Shown here: piece by piece, positions 11,571-54,308 of the stretch
Numbering within the stretch: the first letter of the stretch is position 1
How the letters are laid out: the number at the start of each line of letters is the position of its first letter
Source: Saccharococcus thermophilus
GTDB taxonomy: Bacteria; Bacillota; Bacilli; Bacillales; Anoxybacillaceae
Assembly (NCBI RefSeq): GCF_011761475.1
Contig: NZ_JAASRS010000001.1
Coordinates: 2,108,001 to 2,172,000, forward strand
Direction of reading: 5' to 3'
DNA length: 64,000 nucleotides
Position numbers and translations under genes: made by a program
Notes under the pieces: generated by a model
What the model was told of the DNA's origin: nothing
Database searches by the model: none
Seen by the model: only the letters and a program-made list of their open reading frames with translations

Positions 11571-11823
11571 AATAAAAAACAGCAATGAGAGAAATCTCAT
11601 TGCTGTGCATCACGAACACGAAAAAAGCGAATTCGCCTCGCACAGTGAGATAGCTCTCCAAGATGAATCACATCTTGACAGTCCTACATTTCTTAAACGC
11701 AGGACCAGCGGAAAAAGCAATGAGACTTTTTCCACTTCGGCGACGCTCCCCTTTCCACATCCGTCATCGGAACTCATTTTCCTCCGGATGTGTACTCTTG
11801 AAGTTCGCACCTCTATCTTCACT
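11571..11823 (-). ncRNA. lysine riboswitch (L-box) controlling lysC
   Basis: On the minus strand the leader contains the hallmark L-box blocks AGAGGTGCGAACTTCAAGAG, AAAGGGGAGCGTCGCCGAAG and GGAGAGCTATCTCACTGTG in the correct order, forming an aptamer at about 11643-11823. It is followed by an intrinsic terminator with an 11-bp stem (11580-11590 with 11595-11605) and T-run at 11571-11579, 30 bases before the lysC start. High lysine should favour termination. A tentative promoter (TTTGAT/17/CATATT) lies near 11840-11870. Confidence 0.95.
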
Positions 11824-40062: not shown

Positions 40063-40344
40063 TAAAAAAACTCGCCCCTTGCCATAAGGGACGAGTGCAC
40101 TCGCGGTACCACCCTTGTTAACAGCGCAAAAAACGCGCTGTTCGCTTCATTGCGATAACGGCATCGGCCGGAACACCTTTACATTCCGCAAGCGCGGAAT
40201 GGTCCAAGTGTCAACTCCAGAGGTGAATTCACTTGCTTCTACCATAAAAACGCTCCCAGTCTACGGCGTTTTCTCCCTGGATGGCGAGTGGCAAGCTACT
40301 CTTCTCTTTCATCGTTGTTTTCCGTATTTAACTTATTTAACTAT
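40063..40344 (-). ncRNA. T-box leader (tRNA-Phe) of pheST
   Basis: The T-box sequence AAGGGTGGTACCGCG is at 40116-40102 (minus), followed by an intrinsic terminator (stem 40070-40095, T-run to 40063). Stem I carries GTGAATTCACC near 40221-40231, where TTC is the probable Phe specifier codon. Uncharged tRNA-Phe should stabilise the antiterminator. The pheS start lies about 120 bases further on; that gap has no other feature I can name. Confidence 0.93.
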
Positions 40345-45569: not shown

Positions 45570-45772
45570 CCCTACATCGAGCGGTTCCGGAAAAACAGCC
45601 GATCATCGACCTTTTCCTGCTAATAAAAAAGTGTGGATGCATACGACACCCACACTGCTTACGTCCGAAAACAATATCTCGAACCGTAACGACCTGTCAA
45701 CAGCCACATGGCGTCAACCAGGTGAGAAGCGGGGTGCTTCTGCTTTTGTTACAAACAAGTATTCTATTCACT
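45570..45772 (-). promoter_or_regulatory. L20-type ribosomal leader of infC-rpmI-rplT
   Basis: The roughly 250-base 5' leader holds an intrinsic terminator (GTGTGGGTG / CATCCACAC, 45632-45656, then TTTTTTATT) well before infC. Upstream of it are GC-rich paired segments and a TTGACAGGTCGTTACGG block that could form the alternative structure. Known in Bacillus: L20 binds this leader and promotes termination. Detailed pairing not worked out here. Confidence 0.75.
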
Positions 45773-52631: not shown

Positions 52632-53006
52632 TTATAATGCTTGCGCTTTTTTCACTTCAATTGGGCGCATGCCGCGCGGAAGTTCAATCGTTTCCCGCGT
52701 TTGAGCCCCAAGTTTATCGGCGATATAATCCGCCGCAATCGTCGGATCTAAATGTCCACATGTGTAGACGTCAATGCTCGCATAGCCATGCTCTGGAAAT
52801 GTGTGAATCGTCAAATGGGACTCGGAAATAATGACTACTCCGCTAACACCTTGTGGTGCAAACTTATGAAATGCTACTTCGCGGATTTCCGCACCCGATT
52901 TCAGTGCGGCATCAACAAACGTTTTTTCAATAAATTCGATATCGTTCAGCTTATCAAAATCGCATCCCCATAATTCTGAGATAACGTGACGACCCATTGT
53001 GTCCAT
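52632..53006 (-). CDS. speD: S-adenosylmethionine decarboxylase proenzyme
   Basis: Pyruvoyl enzyme providing decarboxylated SAM for spermidine synthesis. 124 residues from ATG 53006 (RBS AAAGGGGG). Autocleavage is expected at the Glu-Ser of [18 protein letters not shown], giving the pyruvoyl alpha chain from Ser about 63; catalytic TCGHLDP follows. Length equals prokaryotic class 1B SpeD. Monocistronic with its own promoter and an unusually long leader. Confidence 0.96.
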
Positions 53007-53155
53007 TCCATAATCCCCCTTTGAACAAATTTTCTTAACATAAAAACATGAAATTCTTTGCAATAATGGCATGTATAACTACCACGGGGGAAAGTTAGTC
53101 CTAAGAGGTCCTAACCCTTTAAGTAGTCACATTACCTGCCGTTAAGAAGTTCACG
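53007..53155 (-). other. 150-base structured leader of speD
   Basis: Between the promoter start (about 53155) and speD. It contains GTTAGGACCTCTTAGGACTAAC near 53094-53115 (stem GTTAG/CTAAC with direct repeat TTAGGAC) flanked by AAAGGG and TTTCCCCC that can pair outside it. No U-tract terminator. No known riboswitch class recognised. Confidence 0.4.
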
Positions 53156-53190: not shown

Positions 53191-53243
53191 CATGCTTTTT
53201 AAATTTTTTACAAAGAATGCAAACCACCCTTTGCCGATCACAT

Positions 53244-53278
53244 AAAAAAAGTGCTGGTCGTTAAGGCCAGCACTTTTT
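53244..53278 (-). terminator. gapB terminator
   Basis: AAAAAGTGCTGG / CCAGCACTTTTT (12 bp) followed by TTTTTTTATG on the minus strand; overlaps the gapB stop. Confidence 0.92.
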
Positions 53279-54308
53279 ATCCTGCATTTACGCTTAGTTT
53301 TTCGATCATTTTGACGGCGACCATGTTCGCTAAATCGACAACGCGGCAAGAATAGCCCCATTCATTATCATACCATGCTAATACTTTTACTTTCCGACCT
53401 TCCATCACCATCGTCGAAAGACCGTCAATAATCGCCGAGTGCGGATTCGTATTAAAATCTATCGAAACAAGCGGCTCCATCGTAAAATCGAGAATGCCTT
53501 TTAATGGGCCGTTCGCGGCACGAATAAACACTTCATTGACTTCTTCCACCGTAACCTCTTTTTTCACATCCACGACTAAGTCAACGAGCGATACGTTTGG
53601 CGTCGGAACACGAAGCGCCATTCCATGCAGCTTTCCTTTTAAATGTGGCAATACTAATCCTAGCGCTTTTGCCGCTCCCGTTGTTGTCGGGATGATCGAC
53701 TGCGCGCAAGAGCGGGCGCGGCGCAAATCTTTGTGCGGATTGTCGATATTTTTTTGGTCGTTCGTATAAGCATGGACCGTTGTCATTAACCCATTTTCAA
53801 TCCCAAACGCTTCATCAAGCACTTTTACCACAGGAGCAAGGCAGTTTGTCGTGCAGGAAGCGTTGGAAATGATGAAATGTTGATCGATGTCAAGCACATG
53901 CTCATTGACGCCAACGACAATCGTGACATCCTCATTTTTCCCCGGCGCAGTTAAAATAACACGCTTCGCTCCCGCTTCAAGGTGAAGGCTCGCTTTTTCG
54001 CGGGAATTAAATTTTCCTGTCGCTTCGATAACAATATCAATATCGAGCTCTTTCCAAGGCAGCTCTTTCGGATCGCGCGAACTGAGCAGTTTTACCTTTT
54101 TGCCGTTGACAAGAAGACCATCTTCGCGCGGAATCACTTCTCCGTCAAATTTACCGTGATTGGAATCATATTTTATTAAATGCGCTAACGTTTCGGATGG
54201 ATAGCTTGCATTAATCGCCACGATATCTAGGTATGGAGAATGGATGGCGTTGCGAAATACCATTCTTCCAATTCGTCCGAATCCATTAATCGCTATTTTT
54301 GCTTTCAT
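53277..54308 (-). CDS. gapB: glyceraldehyde-3-phosphate dehydrogenase, gluconeogenic GapB type
   Basis: 343 residues. NAD(P)-binding [14 protein letters not shown]; after strand 2 the sequence is [13 protein letters not shown], lacking the Asp-Leu of glycolytic GapA, as in NADP-preferring GapB. Catalytic [13 protein letters not shown] (Cys near 154) and HAYTNDQ (His), [11 protein letters not shown] and [11 protein letters not shown]. Works toward gluconeogenesis in Bacillus. Two CcpN operator matches lie upstream, which agrees with repression on glycolytic carbon sources. Next to speD as in B. subtilis. Confidence 0.95.

Follow-up and report, generated by a model that had tools for sequence, protein, structure and literature searches.

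The RNA leader of speD, the gene for the S-adenosylmethionine decarboxylase proenzyme, combines covariation with strong sequence conservation and is absent from Rfam 15, in keeping with the original prediction of an undescribed structured RNA element before this gene. On comparative sequence evidence, we consider it probable that the leader is a cis-acting, riboswitch-like element controlling the translation of speD. We favour this reading because its association with a single gene, the invariant bases of its core, the covarying scaffold and a complementarity to the Shine–Dalgarno (SD) sequence all fit it. The DNA analysed, referred to below as the window, is a stretch of 64,000 nucleotides of Saccharococcus thermophilus (contig NZ_JAASRS010000001.1, positions 2,108,001 to 2,172,000). 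The source genome is Parageobacillus-like, and the SpeD protein of the window shares 100% identity with its P. thermantarcticus and P. caldoxylosilyticus counterparts over 124 residues.

Architecture of the speD locus and its leader

In the window, speD lies on the minus strand (52632–53006; PF02675, E = 4.1e-39) within an open reading frame at 53072–52632, and its start codon is the ATG at 53006. The gene 5' of the leader (54308–53277, minus) encodes GAPDH; from its place, we take it to be gapB. Between this gene and speD, at about 53243–53280, there is an inverted repeat, GTGCTGG...CCAGCAC, with A and T runs at its sides, which by eye is likely a terminator. Its loop of 9 nt is above the length allowed by the terminator scanner, which did not list the repeat.

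The strong promoter that had been proposed far upstream of speD corresponds to a sigma-A-like, promoter-like site on the minus strand (53190–53162; TTGCAA, a 17-nt spacer and TATACT, 9/12 match). We compared the window with 80 named speD loci, which are the best 80 of 524 SpeD relatives and hence close ones; these 81 leaders were picked via SpeD and not via the core. In 81/81, an invariant CGTGAACTT follows TATACTA at a fixed distance, a motif also present in 38 of 91 further loci described below. Because of this constant spacing, the leader probably starts near 53155, which would give an RNA of about 149 nt between the promoter-like site and speD (53155–53007, minus).

Read from its presumed 5' end on the minus strand, the leader begins with the 5' strand of helix P1, CGUGAACUUCUU (53144–53155), where the CGTGAACTT conservation lies. 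The 5' strand of P2, GGUA (53133–53136, placed by alignment), occupies the position of a second module, M2, that is degenerate here, and the 5' strand of P3, the helix closing the core, is GUGACUAC (53123–53130), supported by covariation. The 37-nt core M1, AAAGGGUUAGGACCUCUUAGGACUAACUUUCCCCCGU (53084–53120), is near-invariant across leaders. It opens with a G-rich strand, AAAGGG (53115–53120), contains the two strands of P4, GUUAG (53111–53115) and its partner CUAAC (53098–53094), and carries a C-rich strand, UUUCCCCC (53086–53093), complementary to the SD region. The 3' strands of P3 (GUAGUUAU, 53075–53082; covariation), P2 (UGCC, 53068–53071; alignment) and P1 (GAAUUUCAUG, 53047–53056; folds) follow, the last having diverged in the Geobacillus loci L003–L006. 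The SD of speD, AAAGGGGG (53015–53022), contains a run of at least five G. The nested pairing strands of the original prediction, AAAGGG with TTTCCCCC and GTTAG with CTAAC, are all present and nearly invariant.

A near-invariant core in speD leaders

The core sequence TACTTAAAGGGTTAGGACCTCTnnGGACTAACTTTCCCCCGTGGTA is nearly unchanged across the window and the 80 SpeD-found loci (81/81). A single expression with few degenerate positions fits all 172 leaders when 91 loci found with R1, a covariance model of the core element, are added. The core is 37 nt long in 171 of these leaders; among them, 26 of the 37 positions never vary and 31 agree in 170 or more. These figures overstate core conservation for the whole group, as the 91 extra loci were selected by R1; relatives of the L182 type, which have a changed cap, turned up via speD and R2, a model of module M2. 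Core variation is concentrated in three loop bases. For this reason the TTAGGAC repeat noted in the original prediction, which does exist in the window, is found in 15/172 leaders; we rejected it as a conserved feature, since it depends on the variable loop bases, which in the window chance to read TA. In two genomes of one family (L208:592–758 and L209:553–719), a long extra hairpin stands where the core otherwise has its apical loop, which fits with that part of the core being a loop.

The core is kept in thermophilic through mesophilic genera among the best 80 of 524 SpeD relatives, including Geobacillus, Anoxybacillus, Priestia, Metabacillus, Cytobacillus, Rossellomorea, Bacillus and others. 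Across the R1 loci, SpeD identity to the protein of the window ranges from 43.6 to 97.6%, and the core meanwhile stays nearly fixed.

Compensatory changes in the helices

The ungapped core lets its flanks be compared without a structure-fitted alignment. Anchored in this way, P3 was paired in 385 of 448 cells over 64 distinct flanks, compared with 306 ± 7.4 (maximum 330) in 2000 shuffles. Lineages carry different versions of the helix (GCTAC/GTAGT, GTTAC/GTAAT, TATAC/GTATA, TTCAC/GTGAA, TACAC/GTGTA and GCAAC/GTTGT), and pairing over five positions is perfect for 13 of 20 distinct left strands and imperfect for the other seven. With the strands in their true register, positions one to five are paired in 115, 111, 115, 114 and 106 of 116 cases; other registers reach comparable values at isolated positions only. 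The outermost P3 pair fails in 49/81 rows.

A model-fitted alignment of 91 matches (87 distinct rows), which includes P1 and P2, had 86.9% of its cells paired and showed 330 both-side changes, against 108 ± 12 in shuffled and 42–104 in slid controls. The P4 strands are nearly constant, with one unpaired cell of 435 and a change from A-U to G-U in seven rows; the A-to-G change at core position 9 keeps the P4 pair as G-U and accompanies a T-to-C change at position 28 in 7/8 cases. P1 is poor in Geobacillus (L003–L006), and its outermost pair fails in 31/78 rows; P1 pairs past the sixth were omitted from R1, as the MAFFT alignment had misplaced them. The alignment of speD leaders proposed as a check with the original prediction has therefore returned covariation, together with conservation far beyond close strains. 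In general, riboswitches show conserved secondary structure with covariation, and conserved bases ahead of genes that belong together metabolically; both were found here, the former by statistics that ignore kinship.

The compensating changes in P3 and P2 also bear on whether the conserved sequence acts as DNA, as an operator close behind the promoter, instead of as RNA. The core, about 35–72 bp past the presumed start site, is suitably placed for an operator, but these changes, like its complementarity to an SD that follows some 60 nt later, fit an RNA and not an operator. Covariation largely refutes the operator, which we regard as very improbable.

The folding energy of the window's leader is ordinary (z = −0.65, with 48/200 shuffles equally good), and the case is consequently built on comparison, not on energy. 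An ordinary energy would suit a fixed structural leader without a specific regulator, such as a constitutive translation tuner, an RNA stability element or a thermosensor, as would the lineages described below whose cap has no more than a G/C hairpin and complementarity to the SD. Yet a thermosensor or a stability stem would not require some 30 near-invariant bases, loops included, and one core spans thermophilic to mesophilic genera. A fixed leader is thus an improbable explanation, and the riboswitch-like reading remains the one that we prefer.

Distribution and association with speD

R1 has a single copy in the source genome and, within the class, matched 184 of 398 genomes; the E-values of these short-calibrated models are rough. 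A 299-genome sample of the phylum gave five R1 matches, all within the class and none outside it. In the 91 loci opened, out of 184 R1-positive genomes, speD lies 14–88 nt downstream of the match without exception (91/91).

Over the 398 class genomes, 120 matched R1 only, 78 matched R2 only, 64 both and 136 neither, so that 262 carry R1 or R2. PF02675 was matched in 292 genomes, of which 17 with weak matches (E about 1e-8 to 6e-14) were separated before counting; none of these 17 has R1 or R2. Among the 275 genomes with a strong match, 261 have R1 or R2 and 14 do not (kinship uncorrected), while the 106 genomes lacking PF02675 include a single one with R1 or R2 (G262), its match lying at a contig end. 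The upstream regions of seven of the 14 exceptions were read by eye: six contain nothing similar, and one (G025, locus L187) contains M2-like remnants.

Phage records contained no match to the element, and the core pattern did not occur in exact form in viral contigs. Ten exact 17-mer matches to M2 in viral contigs were rejected as chance-like, the best R2 match there having E = 0.44. Plasmid records gave one match, with the element in its usual place before speD, on the 258-kb record of Anoxybacillus amylolyticus plasmid pDSM15939_1 (NZ_CP015439.1; L249). This plasmid carries the block coaE–GAPDH–RNA element–speD–cytosolic protein–nrdR, which is chromosomal in the window.

The main alternative to metabolite sensing is that the structured leader controls translation by binding a protein, such as SpeD in autogenous control or some other RNA-binding protein. 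The association with one gene at every R1 or R2 locus opened resembles that of ribosomal protein leaders, and autogenous control would look alike. To our knowledge, however, SpeD, a small decarboxylase, has no RNA target, and its identity falls to 44% while the core stays nearly fixed. Excerpts from a study of Hfq-associated RNAs in B. subtilis list a 79-nt RNA from the speD–gapB intergenic region, labelled unknown or speD leader region, at a ratio that is apparently 14.1 (PMC3574147). Such a listing would suit a protein partner; the same excerpts state, on the other side, that the coimmunoprecipitation patterns of uncharacterised leaders are similar to those of known riboswitches (PMC3574147). 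We judge a protein-binding leader to be unlikely and retain the metabolite-responsive reading. Because this RNA was seen with Hfq, RNA from the speD–gapB region exists in B. subtilis (PMC3574147), and strain 168, for which a speD leader RNA has been reported, should allow a direct test.

A second module, M2

In genomes without an R1 match, another conserved pair of strands, TAGGAACCAGGATTCACT ... AGTGAATGACGTAGGTCCTAGC, was found upstream of speD, a variable hairpin standing where the cap would be. The model of this module, R2 (UAGGAACCAGGAUUCAC...GUGAAUGACGUAGGUCCUA), matched 142 of the 398 class genomes and, in the phylum sample, one genome outside the class (G484), also upstream of speD; it had no match at E 0.001 in the source genome. 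Two sets of R2 loci were opened, and speD follows in 32/32 and 39/39. These 71 loci comprise 70 in the class and one outside it, and some of them coincide with loci opened earlier. Both-side changes occur in 8 of the 14 R2 pairs (28 cells), compared with 4.5 ± 1.8 in shuffles and 0–6 in slides. M1 and M2 are nested together in some genomes, and in several lineages the cap retains just a G/C hairpin and SD complementarity. The motif GCTAGGA often precedes the SD in M2 RNAs and could compete for the same UCCUAGC.

Ten genomes of family f27 (G011, G051, G066, G094, G105, G116, G127, G160, G181 and G192) have two R2 matches, the module standing before two speD genes with differing caps. Family f49 has a second speD, 64–68% identical to that of the window, close behind an upstream reading frame and, by eye, preceded by no element. 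In the sole non-class genome with M2, a divergent cobalamin riboswitch (L218:1768–1949) adjoins the speD locus.

M1, the core of the cap, and M2, an internal loop formed by GGAACCAG and GACGUAGGUCC, might be nested sensor modules that evolution has separated, with M1 alone in the lineage of the window and M2 alone elsewhere. If both were to bind ligands, for instance spermidine together with decarboxylated SAM or SAM, they would make an RNA gate with two inputs controlling a single enzyme, the SD mimic of the cap being exchanged for the real SD. We offer this idea as speculative and unlikely. The loss of one or the other module in whole lineages would also show how riboswitch aptamers and platforms get exchanged.

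Complementarity to the Shine–Dalgarno sequence and proposed mechanism

The CCCCC of the core is complementary both to the GGGGG of the speD SD, which lies some 60 nt downstream of the core, and to AAAGGG inside the same apical domain. A script found at least five contiguous pairs between the C-rich strand and the SD region in 171/172 leaders. The exception, L132, likewise has GGGGG as its SD; its core is 36 nt long, which displaces the fixed slice that the script reads. In 168/172 leaders, a run of at least five G occurs no more than 22 nt from the predicted start. The remaining four have such a run 26–30 nt ahead of a start that is probably misplaced; in these an in-line ATG can be seen closer to the run. 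Minimum free energy (MFE) folds of 22 full-length leaders, inspected by eye, commonly showed the P1–P3 stack with GGG of the G-rich strand on CCC, or else the C-rich strand on the SD.

The M2-only RNAs vary in both strands of the cap, the G-rich and C-rich strands being replaced jointly (by eye: AAAGGGUGG/CCGCCCCC, AAGGA/UCUCCUC and AAAAGGGG/ACCCCC). Counting distinct loop–SD pairs, GGAG is present in the SD for 17/18 with a CUCC loop versus 6/29 without CUCC, an association that may reflect few evolutionary events. One of these leaders (L268) has the SD GAGGAGA, without GGGGG, and its exact 7-nt complement, UCUCCUC, in the loop. Duplex energies of own loop–SD pairs were no better than those of swapped pairs (180/1000 permutations as good, not significant), because G-U pairs and runs of G or C make most combinations work. 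In some M2-only leaders the best complement falls beyond the SD, and in L217 no exact loop complement of at least 4 nt was found under the rule of the script.

The terminator scan of the window listed no terminator-like site in the interval from the core to speD, and translation is therefore the likelier level of control. The likeliest candidate for an expression platform is a sequestration of the SD by the core CCCCC strand, as judged from complementarity and folds. By comparison of the leaders, the P1–P2–P3 stack carries an apical domain holding the C-rich strand. In the ON state of the model that we propose, this strand would pair with AAAGGG, a putative SD mimic, leaving the SD free and speD translated; in the OFF state it would pair with the SD as a pseudoknot, and speD would be off. 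The two pairings would be mutually exclusive, and a small metabolite of the pathway would stabilise the OFF state, putting under feedback the enzymatic step at which SAM is committed to spermidine. Spermidine and, after it, decarboxylated SAM are the likeliest candidates for this ligand, each at less than even odds; feedback by one or the other would be the input most readily expected for an AdoMet decarboxylase. The leader could in this way give feedback control over spermidine synthesis in Bacilli. If it binds a metabolite, it would represent a new and widespread riboswitch, for which there is no Rfam family although the group is well studied and B. paralicheniformis (L080) is a carrier.

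Relation to known RNAs

The Rfam scan of the window identified a lysine riboswitch (11643–11823), a T-box leader (40084–40321), an L20 leader (45619–45751) and a tRNA (999–1072), all on the minus strand. In the speD leader, no Rfam 15 family reached its gathering score, in line with the earlier statement that no known riboswitch could be recognised there. Between 52900 and 53300, the 16 matches at E ≤ 10 were all below gathering score and belonged to unrelated families. Across 40 loci, Rfam had no family for M1 or M2, and the M2 loci gave no match at gathering score. The covariance models of SAM-I and of the SMK box (SAM-III) had no gathering-score match in the window and the 40 loci, and both are absent from the E ≤ 10 list for the window's leader.

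The SMK box riboswitch of metK acts through a metabolite-stabilised anti-SD pairing with a G-rich SD, upstream of a SAM-related gene. The speD leader would work by the same kind of pairing, likewise before a SAM-related gene, but differs in the gene itself and in its nested two-module architecture. As with glmS and other single-gene feedback riboswitches, one gene would be under the control of a metabolite near its product.

In the main texts of the open-access journal articles searched, we found no description of a speD leader motif, the sole mention being of an uncharacterised speD leader in B. subtilis. The excerpts of PMC5519356 contain nothing on the speD leader; the main texts of three structured-RNA screens (PMC8632094, PMC11109978 and PMC6429828) have no occurrence of 'sped', and excerpts of them contain nothing on this RNA. 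The closest functional parallel may be described from excerpts of Salvail et al. (2023; PMC10853860): a rare spermidine riboswitch, known from 13 examples, that is a variant of SAM-I and an off switch for spermidine acting by transcription termination. Both it and the speD leader are leader RNAs of polyamine genes, including speD, in Gram-positive bacteria. In contrast to that SAM-I aptamer with its termination mechanism (PMC10853860), the speD leader has no SAM-I match at gathering score in the window and the 40 loci, the window has no terminator-like site from the core to speD, and R1 or R2 is found in 262/398 genomes; the speD leader RNA is distinct from the SAM-I-variant riboswitch.

A further conserved leader of a polyamine gene, the odc1 motif from a 26-genome screen, also has a possible pseudoknot, but belongs to ornithine decarboxylase and, going by a section title, has a uORF (PMC8632094). 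In the speD leaders, the stretch from CGTGAACTT to the core varies by eye in both length and sequence, an observation that bears on a uORF or leader-peptide attenuator.
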